Below are positions 2,495 to 42,984 of a stretch of DNA of 64,000 bases, in pieces (the stretch's first letter is position 1; every line of letters begins with the position of its first letter). Where the stretch lies: positions 2,196,001-2,260,000 of the forward strand of contig NZ_CP011971.1 of the NCBI RefSeq assembly GCF_001579945.1, in the 5' to 3' direction. This stretch comes from Steroidobacter denitrificans (lineage in GTDB: Bacteria; Pseudomonadota; Gammaproteobacteria; Steroidobacterales; Steroidobacteraceae). A program made the position numbers and the translations under genes. The notes below the pieces were generated by a model, which had not been told where the DNA came from, did not search any database, and saw only the letters and a list, made by a program, of their open reading frames with translations.

Positions 2495-2570
2495 ACGCGA
2501 TCTGTCTCGGCATCCAAACACCCTGAATGAACGAGGCATGGATAGCAAGCCGGGAACCGAAACGCAACTC

Positions 2571-2601
2571 GCGGCGCGAGCGGATATCCGACTCGCGCCG
2601 C
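2571..2601. terminator. Strong hairpin between convergent genes
   Basis: A perfect 10-bp stem, GCGGCGCGAG (2571-2580) with CTCGCGCCGC (2592-2601), encloses an 11-base loop that itself contains GGATATCC. It lies between the convergent hydrolase (ends 2494) and repeat-protein (ends 2653) genes. Only a weak T-run follows, so a bidirectional terminator or RNA 3'-end stabiliser is likely but not certain. Confidence 0.5.
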
Positions 2602-2652
2602 CTTTGAATATCACCCCGCTCCTTCTGAAGTCCGACTAAAGACAACTGACTT

Positions 2653-4302
2653 CTAAGGCAAGGGCTGCGGCGTGCAGTTTCTTACCGAGACGCTGAAGCC
2701 GCCCTGCCAATCATCAGACTCGATCAGCACGCCGTCTTCCGGCGCCGTCAAATTGATGACATGGGTATCTCCCGGCCCAAGCCACTTCTCACGCCACACA
2801 TTGCTGCCGCGCTGCCATTCGACGATCAAGGCCGTACCGGATGTAACCGTAACCTCACAACCGTTGGCCCAGGGTCCCATATACGGATAGAGCAAGGCAC
2901 CTGAAGAGGAATAAACCGTCCTCAACTGATCGCCGGTTCGCGCATTGTCCGAGTACGCAGACCAGTACGGCCAATTGATCACGGTACCGTTCCAGTCCGG
3001 ACTGTTGTTGCAGCCGAAAGTCTCGCAACGCCAGGATGCGGCTACCGATTCCATGCTCTCACCGCCAGGCGGTACGGGGGGCATCTGCGGCACATCGATC
3101 CGATAGGTAAAGGCGGCAGAACTCTGTACACTCAGTACTTCACCCGAGGCAAGTCCCTGGACGAAGTAGGAACCACCGGCGCTCAACGTCGCCAGCGGGC
3201 GGTGGTTGCTATGAGTCGGCAGCCCGGCGTACAGAGTCGCCGACCCGCTGTCCAGCATCACGAAAGTACCGTTGGCCACTCTCGACGGCAGGTAGGCGCC
3301 ACTGGACAGACTGTAGCCCAACCAGCGATGCAGCGGCTGGGCACTCGACGGCCACACCAGCGCGTGAGCGCTGACGGAAGGTCCGTAAGGGCAAGGGCTA
3401 CCGACGCACGCCCCGCTCACCGAGGCGGAAGCAAGCGACTCTTCATCCTCATCCTCATCCGGCTCCGGCGGAAGCTGCGGCGTGGGCAAATCGATCTGAT
3501 AGGTAAAGCCTTCCCCACTGCGCACACTCAGCACTTCACCCGGCGCGAGTCCCTGGACGACGTAAGAGTTGCTACCGCTCAACGTGGCTAGTACGCGGTG
3601 GTCAACCGAACCTGAAAATCCTGCAAACAGCATCGCAGTACCACTGTCGACCGAAATCACTGCTCCATTTGCAAGCTCCGATGGTAAAAACATCGCTTCG
3701 GATGCCGTATACCCTATCCAATGATCCACAGCCTCGGCGGCAGGCCATACGACAGCATGAACACTCACGGACGCCCCCAGTGGACAAGGACTGCCGGTAC
3801 AGGTGCCGGTCACCAGCGCTGAAGCGACTCCTGTTCCTGGAGGTTCCGGCAGCGACGGTTCGGACAGGATAATTTGATATGTAAAGTCGGTGTAGCCCTG
3901 GACGCTCAATACTTCACCCTGGGCGAGACCTGAAACGGCATAGGAAGCGCCGCTGCCGAGGGTAGCCAAGGTGCGATGGGTAGCAGCGTTCGGCGCCCCT
4001 GCGAACAATGCGGCAGTTCCTGTCTGAATCGTAATGGTGGTTCCATTGGCGACGACCGCCGGGAGATAGATTGTCTCCGATGTCACATAGCCCAGCCGAT
4101 CACTCAACGCCTCAGCCGACGGCCACGCGATCGCATGAGCACTGAGCGACGGCCCCCAAGGGCAGGGACTTCCACTACACGACCAAGTCACGCCTTCCGA
4201 GGTACCCTGAATGCCGGTTTGCGCAAAGCTCGAGAAGCTCAGCAGCACCCCTGACAAGAAGGAGGTCAAGATAAAAGGAACATGTCGATGTCGGTTTTTC
4301 AT
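2653..4302 (-). CDS. Secreted protein with four internal repeats, function unknown
   Basis: 549 aa with a clear Sec signal peptide (basic MKNRHRH, hydrophobic core, cleavage near SSFAQ). The mature part holds three closely similar units of about 110-120 aa, each opening with a CxGSPCP-type cysteine pair, then a WP segment, a ...LGY or IGY...LP..VANG stretch, and GEVLSV followed by FTYQI or FTYRI. They are separated by Pro/Glu/Asp-rich linkers. A fourth, divergent C-terminal unit keeps the motif CETFGC, a WP motif and a final Cys. Repeated Cys pairs suggest one disulfide per unit, so a rigid beta-rich rod outside the cell is plausible. There is no PEP-CTERM tail, lipobox or membrane anchor. 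I do not recognise the family. A sigma-54 promoter about 40 bases upstream ties it to the XrtA/PrsR regulon by inference. Confidence 0.75.
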   Translation of the reverse strand: MKNRHRHVPFILTSFLSGVLLSFSSFAQTGIQGTSEGVTWSCSGSPCPWGPSLSAHAIAWPSAEALSDRLGYVTSETIYLPAVVANGTTITIQTGTAALFAGAPNAATHRTLATLGSGASYAVSGLAQGEVLSVQGYTDFTYQIILSEPSLPEPPGTGVASALVTGTCTGSPCPLGASVSVHAVVWPAAEAVDHWIGYTASEAMFLPSELANGAVISVDSGTAMLFAGFSGSVDHRVLATLSGSNSYVVQGLAPGEVLSVRSGEGFTYQIDLPTPQLPPEPDEDEDEESLASASVSGACVGSPCPYGPSVSAHALVWPSSAQPLHRWLGYSLSSGAYLPSRVANGTFVMLDSGSATLYAGLPTHSNHRPLATLSAGGSYFVQGLASGEVLSVQSSAAFTYRIDVPQMPPVPPGGESMESVAASWRCETFGCNNSPDWNGTVINWPYWSAYSDNARTGDQLRTVYSSSGALLYPYMGPWANGCEVTVTSGTALIVEWQRGSNVWREKWLGPGDTHVINLTAPEDGVLIESDDWQGGFSVSVRNCTPQPLP

Positions 4303-4342
4303 ACAGTTACTAAAAGCCGATGGTTACTGCCAGAGACCTAAA

Positions 4343-4357
4343 GCAAGTATCACGCCA
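4343..4357 (-). promoter_or_regulatory. Sigma-54 (-24/-12) promoter for the repeat protein
   Basis: Read on the minus strand the site is TGGCGTGATACTTGC: GG and GC separated by exactly ten bases, with TGGC and TTGC matching the consensus TGGCAC-N5-TTGC at nearly every conserved position. The GC element ends about 40 bases before the repeat-protein start codon at 4302, leaving room for a short leader. The window encodes a sigma-54 activator, PrsR, at 39.5-40.9 kb. Confidence 0.7.
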
Positions 4358-4480
4358 ATCTCGTTATAGCTAGGTTCCATGGGGTTTTACGGGATCTCTA
4401 GGAGGACTCGGCAAATCAGGCTGTCAAGAAAATCGACTACGGGAACATCCTGGCGAAACCAGAGGCAGTGCAACAAATGT

Positions 4481-4550
4481 GAAGTGAGTATCACTTCCGG
4501 AGACCTGACGCCTCGGCGCCTACCCGAACACATCGAAGTGTGTGATACAC
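4481..4550. promoter_or_regulatory. Two related palindromes, candidate activator sites
   Basis: GAAGTG-AGTAT-CACTTC (4481-4497) is a perfect 6+6 inverted repeat with a 5-base spacer. GAAGTGTGTGATACAC (4535-4550) begins with the same GAAGTG and contains GTGT-N5-ACAC. Both lie roughly 125-190 bases upstream of the -24/-12 promoter at 4343-4357, the usual distance for enhancer-binding proteins. They also lie upstream of the divergent acyltransferase gene at 4629. Nothing else is evident in the 326-base gap 4303-4628. Confidence 0.45.
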
Positions 4551-4628
4551 GATAGCGACAGTACCGCCTCGTTTACTTCACCATTTGATTTCACATCCCC
4601 GAACGCCGATCGTTTCTGACGTAATCAT

Positions 4629-5711
4629 GTGGCCAAGCAATATCCAAATATCATCCATGATGGCTCTGCCGTGAACGAAATAGCTTATCTGCAGCCCGTC
4701 AAACGTCTTCTCTCGGCGCCGTATTGGGCGCTGCGCGGACGATTGGCCCAGTTTCCCGTGTGGCTTGGCGATGCTACAAAGGCTCTTGTCATACTGATCA
4801 TCCTGAGGCCAGCGGCAGACTGGCTACCGCGAAACTGGGCCTTCGCGCTGGCCAGGCTGTGTGGGCGACTGCATGCTGCGACGCCATTCTATGGACGCGC
4901 CAAATGTCGTGCCGTCAGGCGGACCCTGACGAACGATCCGGCGGAAGCAAAGCGCTTGGCTGCCCGTATTCTATCGCGGCATTTCCTGGACTTCGTAATA
5001 CTGCGGAGATATCTCAACGGTCGGGAAAATATTAAGGAATGGCCGGTCGTCGAATCCAATACACAGATCGTGGACACACTTAGATGCTCCAATTCGTCAT
5101 ACATCATCGCCCTCGGTCATTTCTCCCGGCATGCATTCATGTCGATGTACGATCGTCGCATTGTTCCCCAGCGGGTCATTTCGATCATAGACCCTCCGGT
5201 TCCAAGGTCCCTGAACCCCCAAAAAATATGGCTTCGCGCTCATTTCGGGCAGATGTGGCAATATCTCAAACACGAGCGGCCCGACATGCAGTTCGTGTCT
5301 CCTGGAAACAGCAATCTACTCAAGACGCTTATACGCGGCATCAGGGAGCCCGGTAATGCGCTATTTGTATCCGTGGATGCTCCATGGGCGCGTGATCGCT
5401 CCGGCAGCATCATACGACCGTTTGCCGGACGGAAAAACGCGAGCTTCGCCACAGGAACGGCAAGGCTATCCAGAATGACGCAATGTCCGATGGTTCTGTG
5501 CATTCCGTACCTAGACGATCGCGGTCAAATCCATCTTGACTGGGTCAGATTGATCGAGCCTCCCGATCCGAAGGATGCGGAAGCCGACGTTATCAATACC
5601 AACCTTCTACTCGACGATATCGAACGCGCTATCGGATTGTACCCTGATCAGTATGTCATCGATGTTCTCAAAGACAGGAGATGGGATGCCCAGGCACAGC
5701 GCTGGGAATAA
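4629..5711 (+). CDS. LpxL/HtrB-like acyltransferase family protein
   Basis: 360 aa from a GTG at 4629; an ATG at 4627 is out of frame, and an in-frame GTG at residue 15 is an alternative start. The protein has the layout of the lysophospholipid/lauroyl acyltransferase superfamily. A hydrophobic N-terminal segment (around residues 45-75) is followed by IALGHFSRHAF near residue 160, which corresponds to the catalytic HxxxxD/E block, although the acidic residue is replaced here. Then come a GNALFVSVDAPW segment, where LpxL proteins bind lipid, and a C-terminal YPDQYVIDVLKDRRW. It opens the plus-strand glycan run. Inferred role: acylation of a lipid or glycan precursor at the inner membrane. The missing acid residue leaves catalysis open. 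Confidence 0.65.
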   Translation: MAKQYPNIIHDGSAVNEIAYLQPVKRLLSAPYWALRGRLAQFPVWLGDATKALVILIILRPAADWLPRNWAFALARLCGRLHAATPFYGRAKCRAVRRTLTNDPAEAKRLAARILSRHFLDFVILRRYLNGRENIKEWPVVESNTQIVDTLRCSNSSYIIALGHFSRHAFMSMYDRRIVPQRVISIIDPPVPRSLNPQKIWLRAHFGQMWQYLKHERPDMQFVSPGNSNLLKTLIRGIREPGNALFVSVDAPWARDRSGSIIRPFAGRKNASFATGTARLSRMTQCPMVLCIPYLDDRGQIHLDWVRLIEPPDPKDAEADVINTNLLLDDIERAIGLYPDQYVIDVLKDRRWDAQAQRWE

Positions 5712-12112: not shown

Positions 12113-13105
12113 CTATGGCTTCACTGCACTCAGGACGCTTTTTACCAGCTCTTTGGCCACCCGCAAGTCAGGTGGATGCCCAAACTTCAGAGCAGTCCAG
12201 ATATGGCGCAATGCCCGTCCGGGAGCGTTGGGATGATCGAATTCGGCAAAGGCCATGTGAAAATTGGCAATCTGGCGTTCCAGCAGGCGGCGATTCTCCG
12301 AACTCGCCTCGTCCACAAGCAACTTCTCGCGGCTGGCGATCTTGTACTGCAGTATGTGTCCGGTACGCCGGGACATGTTGGATTCATGCATGCGGCGCAA
12401 AAAACCGGTCGCTGCGATGATCCCCAGGCCGCCATCACGGGCCAAGCGGTAGATCAAATCCAGGTCTTCACTCGCGCGTAGATTCTCGTCGAAGGGCTGC
12501 ACCCGCTCGAAGACGGATCGACGCATCATGGGAGATCCGGCGATGGCATAGTTCTCGGTAATGAGAATCCGGGTCGCAGTATATGCATCGAGCAGGAACT
12601 CCTCCCCACCGTATCGCGCCGCCTCTCGACGCAACTGGTCGCAGGATGCAAAGTGGGTCTGCGACGCCTCGCCATGCTCATCGAAGTTGCGATAGTCCAT
12701 CAAGACCGTATCACAGCCGGGGTTACGGCGTAGAAAATCGACCTGGCGCTGCAACTTGTCCGGCACCATGAGATCGTCTGCGTCGAAAAACGTTACAAAC
12801 TCTCCCTGAGCCAGGCGCAACCCGTGATTTCGCGGCGAGGAGCAACCACCGCTGTTGGGCTGCCACAGCAAGGTAACCTTGGGTGCGTATGCTCGAACGA
12901 CCTCAGCGGTGTTGTCGGTCGAGCCGTCGTCGACGACAAGTACCTCGGTCGCATCGTATGACTGTCGGAAGATGCTTTGGAGCGTCTCGCCGATCAGGCC
13001 CGCAGCGTTGTATGCTGGAATGATGACGGAAACGAGGCCAAGCCTGCTCACATCACCGCATACCGGCGCCACGGAATCCAATTCGCTGCGAGATTCTCCC
13101 TCCAT
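12113..13105 (-). CDS. Glycosyltransferase family 2
   Basis: 330 aa from the ATG at 13105, chosen because GGAGGAGGT lies directly before it. In-frame ATGs at 13120 and 13129 and an earlier start at 13201 are possible but lack a ribosome site. GT2 blocks: LVSVIIPAYNAAGLIGETL, VLVVDDGSTDNTAEV, FFDADDLMVPDK (DxD-type) and ASEDLDLIYRLA (ED base). It is transcribed away from the asparagine synthase gene, sharing its 287-base upstream region. Sugar specificity cannot be read from the sequence. Confidence 0.87.
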   Translation of the reverse strand: MEGESRSELDSVAPVCGDVSRLGLVSVIIPAYNAAGLIGETLQSIFRQSYDATEVLVVDDGSTDNTAEVVRAYAPKVTLLWQPNSGGCSSPRNHGLRLAQGEFVTFFDADDLMVPDKLQRQVDFLRRNPGCDTVLMDYRNFDEHGEASQTHFASCDQLRREAARYGGEEFLLDAYTATRILITENYAIAGSPMMRRSVFERVQPFDENLRASEDLDLIYRLARDGGLGIIAATGFLRRMHESNMSRRTGHILQYKIASREKLLVDEASSENRRLLERQIANFHMAFAEFDHPNAPGRALRHIWTALKFGHPPDLRVAKELVKSVLSAVKP

Positions 13106-13392
13106 ACCTCCTCCAGACATGATGAACATACACTCGCAGTTTTTCGCGACGTGCGGCGATACGCCATGATATCGCCGCCGATACTCGCTGGTGTGACGCA
13201 ACTCTGAAAAGGTAATACTAGCTTCAGTGTATATTGCGCTCAGCTGTCATCGCCGAAGTCAAAGTAACCCGCTTGGGCGAGGAAGACGACATTGATGATC
13301 ATACGCAGCGCCGCATAAGCAAAGTCTGGCCAAGCGGTCCATTTCCAGCAGGCAGATTCTCGCCCGGACACCAGCAAGGAATATCTGACCAC

Positions 13393-34749: not shown

Positions 34750-37713
34750 CTACGATTGCGGCAGGCTGTCCAGCAACTCGCGCGCCTGCGCCTGACTGGC
34801 GAAGGGTGCGGCATCCGCCCGTACCCGCAGCATCGCTTCCAGGCGCTCGCGCGCCTGACGTGGCGAGCCGCTCGCCGCCAGGGCCGCGGCATGGTGATAC
34901 TCCAATTCCCGGTAGGCAGGATCGGCGCGCGCGGCCTGCTCGCTTCCTGCGGCCTGACGGGCAACCTGGAGCGCGGATTCCAGCACCTTCAAACCTGCCG
35001 CCGGCTTCTGGTTGCGCACCAGGATCCAGCCGTAGGTATCGGCGACCGCGGCAACCTGCGGCGCCAGGACATGCGCCCGGCGCGCCGTTTCTTCGGCACG
35101 GATATCACCCTGCGTCTGGTAGAGCCAGGCCAGATTGTTCAACGCCAGCGCGTCGTCGGGACGTTCGCGGATGACGATCTCATATTCGCCGATGGCGCGC
35201 TCGGTCAGTCCCATGTCGAGATACGCCTGCGCCAGCACGGTGCGCACGGTATTGTCGCCCGGCTGATATTGCAGCCAGGTGCGCAGCGGCTCGGTCGGCT
35301 CGCGCAGCCCCCCCTGCTGCCTGGCGCGGTAGGACTTCAACGCCAGGGCGGCGGAGAGCTGTCGCGCCGAGGCGGCGTCGTAGGCGGCGCTGGCCTGGGC
35401 GTGGCGCCCCAGCGCCATCAGTACGTCGCCCTCGAGCGTGATCGCCGCGGGATCGCGCGGCAGCGCCTGTCGCAGCGCGCTGGCGCGCGACAGGGCCACC
35501 TCCGGCCGCTCCTGCCGCAGGTCGATCGCCGCCAGCATGCCGACCGTAGGCGGCCACTGCGGTTGCAGTACCAGGGCTGCGTTCAGCGCCTCGCGGGCAG
35601 CGGCGGCATCCCCCATCGCCAGCTGCGCGCGCGCCACGTCCAGCCAGTAGCGGGCGCGATCCTCGTTACTGCTCTCCATCCGCGCCGCCAGGTCGGTCGC
35701 CTGCCGAAAACGCGCCAACGCCTCGCCATGGCGCCCGGCCTCCAAAAGAATTTGGCCGACGGCGTCGGCGATCTCGGCGTGCTCGCGGGCGGCTTCGGCT
35801 AGTTCCTTGAGCACCGTATCGGTCTTGGCGGGATCGTGTACCTGTGCATACAGGCGCGCCAGCCTCAATCTGGGTGCGAACGCATCCACGCGCAGGCGGC
35901 GGGCCTGCTCCAGCAATTCGATGGCGCGTGCCGTCTCACCGTTGCGCACTGCCAGGTCCGCCAGCACCAGGCGCACCGGCATGTTGTCCGGATGGCGCCC
36001 CAGCAGATCTTCCAACCATTGCGCGGCCGCTTTGGGCTGGCCTGCCGCCACTTCGATACGCGCCCGGTTGATGAAGGTGGCCGTATCTTCGGGTGCTATC
36101 TGCGCCGCCGCCGCCAGCAAGGCCCGGGCTTGATCGAACTGTCGCTGATGGCCATGGAATTCGGCTGCAAAATTCAGCAACGCGGCGTCTCCAGGATGGC
36201 CGGCCAGCAGGTCTTCGATTCGGCGCTGTGCAACCTGCGTGCCCTGTACCATGCCGATCGCGGTGACGCGCAAACGTTCCAGCGGCATATCCAGAGGCGA
36301 CTGCGGCACACCTTCCAGCAATGTCAGTGCCTTGCGATTTTCACCGTTGCGCAGATAAGCCGCTGCCAGTTCGAGCTTGAGCTCGCGGTCCCGCGGCCGG
36401 CTCGCCACGGCCTGCTCGAGACGGGCGATACCCGCGCGGGTCTGGCCCTGCTGCAATTGCGCGATGCCCAGCAGTGCATCCAATTGGGGATCGCGTCCGC
36501 CCCCCGCTTCATCCAACGCCGTGAAGTTCTCCAGCGGCCGCCCCGCGGTGCCCCCACCCCCTGCGACCAGGCTGCCCGGAGCCGCCAGCAGTACCTGCAT
36601 GGCCGCCTCGGGCCGCCGCAGGCGCAGCCGCACCTGGGCCAGCAGCTTGCGCGCCTCGATGTTCTCGGGGGTGCGCTGCAGCGCCTGCGCCAGCTGCAAC
36701 TCGGCCTGGTTGAGAGTGCCCTGAGCCAGCAACGCCGCACCCAGCAGGAAGCGTGCCTGGGCTAGTTCGGGCGCCGCGGCCACCAGGCGCTGCAATTCGG
36801 CCACCGCTGCGTCATAGTCCTGCGCGGCCATGGCCAGACGCGCGGCGAGCATGCGCGTCACAGGTGCCTGCGGAAATACCGACTGTAGTTCGCGCTGAGC
36901 CGCACGCGCCGCCTCCAGATTGCCCCGGGCCATCCGCGTTTCCGTCAGGCTGACCAGCAGGCTCGCCCGTTGCAATGCATCCAGCTGCGTGGCGGCATGA
37001 GGACGAGCCGTCTCCAGAACCCGCTCGGCCTGTTCGAAGTCGCCGCGCCGCACATACAGGCCTGCCATGATCAGTCGAGTCTCCGCCCACCGAGGCTGCG
37101 ATTCATCCAGCTTCTCGACCAGCCGCTCGAGTTGGGCCAAGGCCGCTGCCAGCTCTCCCTGGGCGGCACGCGCCATGGCCAGGCCAGTAGCGGCCTCCAC
37201 CGAGGCCGGATGCGTCTGCAGCGCCTGTTCGAAAGTCTTTTGCGCCTGCTCGGGCTGTTGGATATCCAGCAGCGCGCGGCCTCGGTAGATCAGATCCAGC
37301 GGCGCCGGCAGCGGCAGCTCGTCTGCATCCATCTGCGCCAGCAGCTCGCGCGGCTGGCCGCTCGCCAGGCGAAGCTTCGCGGTCAGCTCCACCGTCTCGG
37401 CAACAGGCGCGCCCGCCTGGATGGCGCGTTCCAGCTCGCGCCGGGCATCGATCAGCTCACCCCGCCGCAACAGTACACGCGCAAGCAGCAAGCGGGCCTG
37501 CGCATGGTCGGCCTGGGACTGCAATGCATTGCGCAGCTCGATTTCCGCGGCCGCGTAGTCATGCTGCGCGATGCGCTGCTCGGCGCGTTCCAGCCGTGCG
37601 TTCGCATCCAGGAACAGCTCGCAGCCGGCCAGCAGCAGCGCCGCTGTACACAGCGCGGCAGCGATGAATCTGCAACGTTCGCGCCTCGCTCCAGGCATCT
37701 TGTCTTGCTTCAT
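34750..37713 (-). CDS. prsT: XrtA-system TPR-repeat lipoprotein PrsT
   Basis: 987 aa from ATG 37713, which has GAAGG upstream; a GTG at 37737 overlaps the exosortase stop. A lipoprotein signal peptide ends in LLLAGC. The whole remainder is tetratricopeptide repeats, with the A/L/Y spacing seen throughout (e.g. DYAAAEIELRNALQSQADHAQARLLLARVLLR-type units), at roughly 34-residue period. PrsT proteins of this size occur next to xrtA and epsI in PEP-CTERM exopolysaccharide loci, and were named for protein sorting. Role inferred: outer-membrane-anchored scaffold linking the export apparatus or sorted proteins. GC-rich (the row at 36901 is 72%). Confidence 0.9.
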   Translation of the reverse strand: MKQDKMPGARRERCRFIAAALCTAALLLAGCELFLDANARLERAEQRIAQHDYAAAEIELRNALQSQADHAQARLLLARVLLRRGELIDARRELERAIQAGAPVAETVELTAKLRLASGQPRELLAQMDADELPLPAPLDLIYRGRALLDIQQPEQAQKTFEQALQTHPASVEAATGLAMARAAQGELAAALAQLERLVEKLDESQPRWAETRLIMAGLYVRRGDFEQAERVLETARPHAATQLDALQRASLLVSLTETRMARGNLEAARAAQRELQSVFPQAPVTRMLAARLAMAAQDYDAAVAELQRLVAAAPELAQARFLLGAALLAQGTLNQAELQLAQALQRTPENIEARKLLAQVRLRLRRPEAAMQVLLAAPGSLVAGGGGTAGRPLENFTALDEAGGGRDPQLDALLGIAQLQQGQTRAGIARLEQAVASRPRDRELKLELAAAYLRNGENRKALTLLEGVPQSPLDMPLERLRVTAIGMVQGTQVAQRRIEDLLAGHPGDAALLNFAAEFHGHQRQFDQARALLAAAAQIAPEDTATFINRARIEVAAGQPKAAAQWLEDLLGRHPDNMPVRLVLADLAVRNGETARAIELLEQARRLRVDAFAPRLRLARLYAQVHDPAKTDTVLKELAEAAREHAEIADAVGQILLEAGRHGEALARFRQATDLAARMESSNEDRARYWLDVARAQLAMGDAAAAREALNAALVLQPQWPPTVGMLAAIDLRQERPEVALSRASALRQALPRDPAAITLEGDVLMALGRHAQASAAYDAASARQLSAALALKSYRARQQGGLREPTEPLRTWLQYQPGDNTVRTVLAQAYLDMGLTERAIGEYEIVIRERPDDALALNNLAWLYQTQGDIRAEETARRAHVLAPQVAAVADTYGWILVRNQKPAAGLKVLESALQVARQAAGSEQAARADPAYRELEYHHAAALAASGSPRQARERLEAMLRVRADAAPFASQAQARELLDSLPQS

Positions 37714-37733
37714 CGGCCTGCCTTCAATTGGCT

Positions 37734-40860
<3,127 letters not shown>

Positions 40861-40864
<4 letters not shown>

Positions 40865-42984
40865 GTTGTTGCTGCCTCATGTGCATCGGCCGGGCCGGCT
40901 GGCTCATCGTGTACCGTATCGAGGTGCGCCGTCTCGGCCCAAAGCGGCAGGGTAACCGCAAAACGAGTGCCCTGTCCGGGACTACTGCATACTTCCACCT
41001 TGCCGCCGATGGAGCGGACATACTCGCGCGCCTGATAGGCGCCGATACCCATGCCCTTGGCGCCCTTGGTGCTGTCGAACGGCCGGAACAGGCGCTGGCG
41101 TAAAAATGTCGCGTCCATTCCCGCGCCGGTATCCTGCACGATCAGCGTAGCCTGCGAATTCGAGGAATCGAGGCTCACCTCCACCCGCCCATCCTCGCCG
41201 GTCGCATCCTGCGCATTGCGCAGGATATGCTCGATGACATTGGTCAGCCGCTCCCGATCGGCCTGCACGAACACCTCGCCGGCGCTCCGCACCGCCGGTG
41301 CCGGCCGGCGCGATGCACAGCGACGGACGGCCTCGAGCGTGAGCTCCGCCAGATCCACCCGCAACGAACGTTCGCTCGCCGCTGTGCCGCGCAGCTGCTC
41401 CATGAGACGGGTCATGCGCGCCACCGTATTGTCGATCGTGCCGAGAGCATCGTCGATGAACTCCGGTTTGTGCCGGTGGCGTTGAGCGTTGTCGATGATC
41501 AGCTGCAGTTGCGCGATCGAGTTCTTCAGATCGTGCATCATGAAGGCGGTCAACCGGTTGTAGGCTTCGAACTGGCGCGCCTCGGCCAGCTTGCGGTCGG
41601 CCTCATGCTGCGCGATATGGGTGGCCACGTGGCGTCCCACGGTCTTGAGCAGATCGCGATCCTCATAAGTCAGCTGGAACGGCGGTGGCGGCTCGTACAG
41701 GACCACGAAACCCACCAGCTGATCGAGCTGCAGCAGCGGCGAGACGATGCGCATCTGCGGATGGTTCCTCAGCCAAGCCGGCAATATCAGGTTCTCGTAC
41801 AGGACCGGCTGTTCGCGAAGCTCGCGCGTATCGATGATCCATTCCGTGCGCGCCAGAAAGCGTGGCAGCGCTTCGCTGGAATCGATGGCGGCGAGTTGCG
41901 CCATGCTGTCCAGCCGCATGGGCCAGGCCGCGTGGGGCACGAAGCTGCGTCCCTCCTCCTCGCGCAGGAACAGCAGCCCTCCGGGACTGCCAAAGATCTG
42001 CGCGATGGCACGCAGCGCCGTACGCGGCACATCCGCTTCATCCTGTGAAGACAGCGTCTTGATGAAGCGCAGCCACTCCAGGCGATAGTCGTACTTGTTG
42101 CGATAGAAATGCTTGCTGATGAACACCTGGGCGCGCCGGCGCAGCATCGGCGAGCCCAACAGGCTGGCCAGCACCACCGCGGCGCCGGCAAGAAAAATGA
42201 TCTGGGCCACCCTGCCCCAGCTGCCGCCGACCATCTGCACGTAGTAGCCGCCGATCGACATGAGCACCAGGTAGACGCCCACGGCCATGAACGTGGTGGT
42301 ATAGAACACCACCTGGCGTGACACGAACACCTCCAGCGACCAGTGGGGATTGCGCCGCGCCGCGATGGCGATCAGCGGCACGGCGAACGCATTGATCAGC
42401 CCGCGCGCATTCCAGCTGTCCACGGCGATGTTCCCCAGCAATTCACCCTGGGAATACATGAACAAGTCGTAGGCGAACAAGCCGCCGACGCCGATACAGA
42501 AATAGCGCAGCGAACCGCGGGCTGCCTCGCCCGCATTGCGATAGATCTGCTCCAGCAGAATCAATGCCGCCAGCGACAGTATCAATCCCGCCCGCGACAA
42601 CAACAGGGTCGGATTGAGCCGCACACCGGCCTGGGCCAGCAATGGTGCCGACAACAGCAGGACCAGCAGGACCCCACACGACACACGGGCCGCAAGACTC
42701 AGACTCCGTGGCAGTGCGGCGCCCCCCACGCAGGTCAGGGCATAGATCCAGGCGGCATCGCGCAATATTTCCACGGCATACAGCAACAGCACCGGGATCG
42801 CGCCGCTATGGTGCTCCACCGTCAGCACCGCGGCCCATACTGCCGTCATGGCGCTGGCCGCGATCAGCCAGGCGCCGGTGCGCCTGCCGTTCCAGCTCGT
42901 CGCCAACAAAACCGTCAACAACATAAAACCGAGCCCGGCGGTGCCGTAACTGATCATGCCCGCCAGGTTCATGACACCGTTCAT
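40861..42984 (-). CDS. prsK: PEP-CTERM sensor histidine kinase PrsK
   Basis: 707 aa. About eight N-terminal membrane helices (to roughly residue 280) form the sensor; no known ligand pocket can be assigned. A GAF-like region (about 300-450) follows, then the dimerisation/phosphoacceptor block AFMMHDLKNSIAQLQ with His near 484, and the ATPase domain with IEHILRNAQDAT (N box), VQDTGAGMD (G1) and TKGAKGMGIGAYQAREY (G2). It phosphorylates PrsR, whose gene overlaps its stop by four bases. Seven bases separate it from the sugar transferase gene upstream. Confidence 0.93.

Follow-up and report, generated by a model that had tools for sequence, protein, structure and literature searches.

Sequence comparison points to a PrsR-type sigma-54 promoter upstream of a secreted-looking repeat protein without a PEP-CTERM tail in Steroidobacter denitrificans

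The stretch of DNA analysed here (the window, 64,000 nucleotides) belongs to the Steroidobacter denitrificans genome, which consists of one contig of 3,467,246 bases. Within the window lies an XrtA exopolysaccharide cluster, of which the following components, all encoded on the minus strand, scored above their curated cut-offs: PrsT, a TPR-repeat protein (34750-37737; TIGR02917, 414.6 bits, cut-off 312.2); the exosortase XrtA (37734-39500; TIGR03109, 208.4 bits, barely over the cut-off of 208); PrsR, a sigma-54-dependent response regulator (39497-40864; TIGR02915, 706.8 bits, cut-off 502.6); and PrsK, a histidine kinase (40861-42984; TIGR02916, 719.2 bits, cut-off 300). The genome encodes a single RpoN and two PEP-CTERM proteins above cut-off. 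Also on the minus strand lies the gene for a 549-residue repeat protein (2653-4302), which has a signal-peptide-like start as judged by eye and lacks a PEP-CTERM tail. An intergenic region of 326 nt separates its ATG, at position 4302, from a divergent gene on the plus strand (4629-5711), the product of which weakly matched an LpxL-type model (TIGR02207, score under the cut-off).

According to the account of Haft et al. (2006; PMC1569441), 99 of 167 proteobacterial PEP-CTERM genes are preceded by motif 1, a 17-nt sequence ending in TTTACA, and then by a sigma-54 motif 2, the spacer between the two having a mean of 62.8 nt and a range of 32 to 92 nt. PrsR was proposed in that account as the motif 1 protein, and a few sites were also reported ahead of other genes (PMC1569441). 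The S. denitrificans genome encodes PrsK, PrsR and RpoN, the set of regulators that a promoter of the Haft type calls for.

A sigma-54 −24/−12 element, TGGCGTGATACTTGCT, was read directly on the minus strand at 4357-4342, with 39 bases between it and the ATG of the repeat-protein gene. It has both the GG of the −24 position and the GC of the −12 position, and it scored 17.4 bits against a motif 2 model derived from PEP-CTERM genes of the family. The initial annotation had based its sigma-54 promoter on an exact GG-N10-GC spacing 40 bases ahead of the ATG, and that reading (TGGCGTGATACTTGC, minus strand, 4357 to 4343) proved to be accurate. Taken alone, the element is weak evidence for a promoter; a crude consensus scan of the 64 kb returned 37 matches this good or better, its own site counted. 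The sigma-54 call becomes significant because a 17-nt PrsR-type motif, AGTCGATTTTCTTGACA, is present on the same strand at 4438-4422, a site that the initial annotation overlooked and that sits between the promoter and the palindromes to which that annotation gave the regulatory role.

This predicted PrsR operator (motif 1, 4422-4438) scored 18.4 bits and was also matched by the composite pattern used genome-wide. The spacer between it and motif 2 (4358-4421) is 64 nt long, which is within the published range and close to the published mean. Motif 1 has the expected length of 17 nt and ends in TTGACA, its one departure from TTTACA; TTGACA is found in a minority of family sites, G having a frequency of about 19% at that position in the family model. 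Both this ending and the A at position 1 counted against the PrsR reading. These assessments were made with our own family model and not with the published logo, which is a figure. The composite score of the two motifs was 31.0 bits, and the runner-up anywhere in the window reached 14.2 bits. A lone look-alike of motif 1, CGTCGAAAAACGTTACA (12781-12797, plus strand, 18.6 bits), has no good motif 2 and falls within an ORF on the opposite strand (12113-13201).

The family model was rebuilt from 92 PEP-CTERM upstream regions, all of the same family, of which three were removed before training as duplicates or as shorter than 120 nt. The composite model took up 49 of the 89 training regions, and the 40 that were not taken up imply that the regulon is non-uniform. 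In this model motif 1 reads [TC]GTCG[GA]-N5-[TC]T[TG]ACA and motif 2 reads TGGC[AC][CT]G-N4-TTGC, with a mean spacer of 64.3 nt. The query promoter was kept out of the training set, but both PEP-CTERM genes of the query's genome were in it. Training started from a seed, namely the pattern GTCG[AG]-N5-TTTACA together with four motif 2 strings close to the consensus, and for this reason the strand distribution of TTTACA, the scores of held-out regions and the controls carry more independent weight. TTTACA occurred 31 times on the coding strand of the 92 upstream regions and three times on the other strand. When the query's genus was excluded, which left 52 training regions of which the model took up 33, the score of the query was 32.7 bits, and a single window tile among 782, the query's own, reached 20 bits. 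Ten of the 37 held-out PEP-CTERM regions of the query's genus reached 20 bits under the same model and two reached 28, and none of the 37 reverse strands reached 16 bits. By these scores the query matches the model better than the majority of PEP-CTERM genes in its genus, many of which lack the site.

Other DNA of the same genome was scored as well. Among 41 further loci (247,708 strand-bases), which came from pattern searches and lean towards motif 1 since 30 of them were retrieved with a motif 1-like pattern, the top site, at 27.4 bits, was a promoter belonging to one of the genome's two PEP-CTERM genes, and the second-best, at 20.8 bits, was located within open frames. The strict composite pattern had four matches in the whole genome and none in the reversed control. 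Two of the four belong to the repeat-protein gene and to the PEP-CTERM gene at another locus (L011), and the other two overlap ORFs and stay below 8 bits with the model. When the family PEP-CTERM regions and 60 composite sites from elsewhere in the family were considered together, the lengths separating the two motifs were seen to concentrate around 53, 63-65 and 74-76 nt. Such steps, each of approximately one helical turn, suggest that PrsR has to lie on a given face of the DNA to meet the polymerase.

A search of the 149 other family genomes found a homologue of the repeat protein, 52% identical and encoded in another genus, in one of them, and a search of 368 further genomes sampled from the class, with at most three candidates scored per genome, detected none. 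The homologue and the query share their promoter arrangement, with TGCCGGTTTTCTTTACA, 53 nt, TGGCACGGAGCCTGCA and a further 53 nt preceding the ATG (28.3 bits); this is the one homologous promoter with upstream DNA available for comparison. The spacers of the two promoters differ by 11 nt, again close to one helical turn. An exosortase A-like fragment (36.2 bits over 93 residues, below cut-off) was found 1.2 kb from the ATG of the homologue.

The composite site could in principle be a chance match, the gene being transcribed from a sigma-70 promoter that escaped detection, but this is scarcely credible. GG-N10-GC sites are common when taken alone, as the scan of the window showed, and although no sigma-70-like site was found in 2500-4750, this is little evidence because shuffled sequences give just 1.0 such sites on average. 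However, none of 5000 Markov sequences of equal composition reached the composite score of the query, their maximum being 18.7 bits; the top composite score in 30 random 64-kb strands was 22.1, and the own-genome loci contained nothing above 20.8 bits besides the PEP-CTERM promoter. A sigma-54 promoter that is served by some other activator of the NtrC type is also quite improbable. Activators of this type have the promoter architecture in common, a loose first look at the genome gave 47 TIGR02915 candidates, and an ORF of 452 residues that by eye encodes an NtrC-type response regulator (L011, 10-1368, plus strand) adjoins, in convergent orientation, the PEP-CTERM gene of that locus. Nevertheless, PrsR was the sole one of ten scored candidates to be found at E 1e-140 and above the curated cut-off, and the composite site tracks PrsR across the 150 family genomes compared: strict-pattern sites numbered 171 versus 21 in the control for the 52 genomes with PrsR, and 29 versus 20 for the 69 genomes in which neither PrsR nor PEP-CTERM matches were found. 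The remaining 29 genomes, which have PEP-CTERM matches and in which PrsR was not found, gave 48 sites versus 8, an excess that speaks against a strict link to PrsR and that may be caused by incomplete assemblies. A related enhancer-binding protein could also have motif 1 in common with PrsR.

The operator itself had been placed by the initial annotation in two GAAGTG palindromes, 125-190 bases upstream of the promoter. One of these was confirmed as a perfect dyad, GAAGTGAGTATCACTTC at 4481-4497 (GAAGTG-AGTAT-CACTTC, with 7-bp arms around GTA), but the other (approximately 4534-4550) has one GAAGTG and lacks the matching half; the second site as a whole (4528-4550) carries GAAGTG and GTGATAC, and its only dyad of at least 5 bp is ACACA-N6-TGTGT at 4528. 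Enhancer-binding proteins can act from such distances, and the perfect dyad is within their reach; even so, we regard its role as the PrsR operator as most improbable. The genome contains a single copy of GAAGTG-N5-CACTTC; when up to two mismatches were allowed, 55 places matched versus 101 for the reversed control. The pattern was present in none of the 92 PEP-CTERM upstream regions, and in three of 234 loci, all of them covering the query. Scored as motif 1, the two sites gave −30 to −39 bits. At the homologous promoter, another ORF stops 13 nt upstream of motif 1, and thus there is no intergenic room for distal palindromes. The initial annotation had itself stated that its proposal would fall if other PrsR targets had no such palindromes upstream, and the exact pattern was found neither elsewhere in the genome nor in the family's PEP-CTERM upstream regions. 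In addition, 136 dyads with 7-bp arms and gaps of 0-12 were counted in the window, corresponding to 0.69 expected per 326-nt intergenic region (a rough rate, the window being mostly coding), and the dyad at 4481-4497 is not more than chance would provide. With the dyad a genome singleton at chance level, missing from the PEP-CTERM regions and strongly negative as motif 1, the palindromes were rejected as the PrsR operator. One could alternatively envisage that the dyad and the GTGATAC repeats bind a second regulator, which would repress or loop the promoter or would serve the divergent, acyltransferase-like gene at 4629. GTGATAC is common to the −24/−12 element (4347) and both palindrome sites (4488 and 4542), these being three of its seven copies in the window, and the dyad is located between divergent genes. 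Such dyads and triples are, however, common by chance (some 7-mer occurred three times in 118 of 391 window tiles of 326 nt), GTGATAC was not enriched in the 92 PEP-CTERM upstream regions (three and one on the two strands), and a search of the other 149 family genomes returned nothing for the divergent gene at E 1e-20. The GTGATAC triple is not supported as a significant motif, and a second regulator seems unlikely. The dyad is not needed for an explanation by PrsR and RpoN, and no function is assigned to it.

The product of the regulated gene contains three repeats (R1-R3) with pairwise identities of 54-56% and a divergent repeat, R4, which scored above shuffles against R1 and R2 but not against R3. 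It had no match in NCBIfam or Pfam. The protein ends in ...SVRNCTPQPLP, where a PEP-CTERM substrate would have a C-terminal PEP motif, a membrane helix and a basic tail, and it is absent from the TIGR02595 matches of the genome; a homologous fragment also terminates in NCTPQPLP. The structure model of the full-length protein was poor (pLDDT 52), and that of the last domain was good (pLDDT 85). Compared with known structures, the last-domain model showed a weak cupin-type likeness, with a best E of 0.0032 and a query TM-score of at most 0.42 among the 50 matches listed; several of the weak matches are named or known as cupins. None of the matches listed fell below E 0.001, the viral library likewise gave none below that value, and the best sequence match to a solved structure had an E of 0.079. 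The last domain carries no name in Pfam or NCBIfam. In a scan of named genomes, it was observed to stand alone in two Phycisphaeraceae MAGs (L141, 209-649; L142, 3980-4396; L143, 3986-4387), in short proteins that are 50-53% identical across phyla and have, by eye, no obvious signal peptide. A role of the product in the matrix or in binding is our inference.

A regulon member without the tail is probably not exceptional, because, of the 60 composite sites picked by hand from elsewhere in the family, 32 precede ORFs in which a PEP- or SEP-type tail was recognized by pattern and 28 precede other ORFs. The 60 were picked from among the sites listed, coding-looking ones being avoided, and the downstream ORF was taken as the longest nearby; six of the 28 other ORFs extend past the end of the retrieved sequence, and the choice of ORF may be wrong for some of the 28. 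Of the ten among the 28 that were scanned with Pfam, one had no match; the names given to the rest include a polysaccharide export protein, an S41 peptidase and a 2OG-Fe(II) oxygenase. Composite PrsR-type promoters were also observed to recur before pairs of tail-less proteins that are similar by eye and are encoded in different genomes, each pair within one genus: a protein of 164-173 residues (L175/L232), a 2OG-Fe(II) oxygenase-like protein (L181/L230, L181 by Pfam) and a 61-residue ORF (L188/L194).

Taken together, the motifs, the composite score and the lack of a PEP-CTERM tail lend strong support, by sequence comparison, to a promoter of the PrsR type ahead of a secreted-looking protein, and we put at about 0.9 the probability that the minus strand carries at 4342-4438 a promoter dependent on PrsR and RpoN, in which motif 1 is the PrsR site and from which a tail-less secreted product is expressed. 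The initial annotation very probably identified the promoter and the regulon correctly and misplaced the operator. In the mechanism that we favor, PrsR, the gene for which lies at a distance of 35 kb in the same exopolysaccharide cluster, would in its phosphorylated form occupy motif 1 (4422-4438) and reach the sigma-54 polymerase positioned on motif 2 (4342-4357). ATP hydrolysis by PrsR would then open the promoter, and transcription would begin about 30 bases ahead of the ATG. The repeat protein would be produced alongside the PEP-CTERM matrix proteins and secreted and, because it has no PEP-CTERM tail, would escape sorting by the exosortase. A broader proposal, that PrsR of the family drives a second, exosortase-bypassing class of secreted matrix proteins and that a GTGATAC-binding regulator gates activation by PrsR at the query promoter, seems unlikely.

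Under the PrsR reading, a gene without a PEP-CTERM tail joins the predicted PrsR regulon on evidence that suffices for the design of a direct test. The relocated operator keeps footprinting from being aimed at the palindromes alone, and the family-specific operator model, in which the motif 1 consensus is followed by a spacer near 53, 64 or 75 nt and then by the motif 2 consensus, can be used for listing the regulon.

The repeat-protein gene would thus be a new addition to a known regulon, that of PrsR, with its predicted operator moved to 4422-4438. Control of PEP-CTERM genes by PrsK and PrsR in Zoogloea is mentioned, as a second-hand report, in PMC9012009. In the Haft et al. account (PMC1569441), the closest counterpart is the same order of motif 1, spacer (64 nt here) and motif 2, here 39 nt from the start codon, in a genome with PrsK, PrsR, PrsT and an exosortase; unlike the PEP-CTERM genes described there, the gene of the query has no PEP-CTERM tail. 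The pepA gene of Aquincola tertiaricarbonis, which is RpoN1-dependent and has a mapped start and −24/−12 element, resembles the query in having that element upstream of a matrix gene, and a predicted enhancer sequence farther upstream is mentioned (PMC9850573); however, pepA is a PEP-CTERM gene that was examined by experiment. In Desulfovibrio vulgaris, a different organism, DAP-chip with the PEP-CTERM response regulator DVUA0057 enriched five predicted PEP-CTERM target regions and several others (PMC3333781); the legend there describes the binding site motifs of these regulators as not validated, and the likeness to the PrsR proposed here lies in binding to PEP-CTERM target regions and to others besides.
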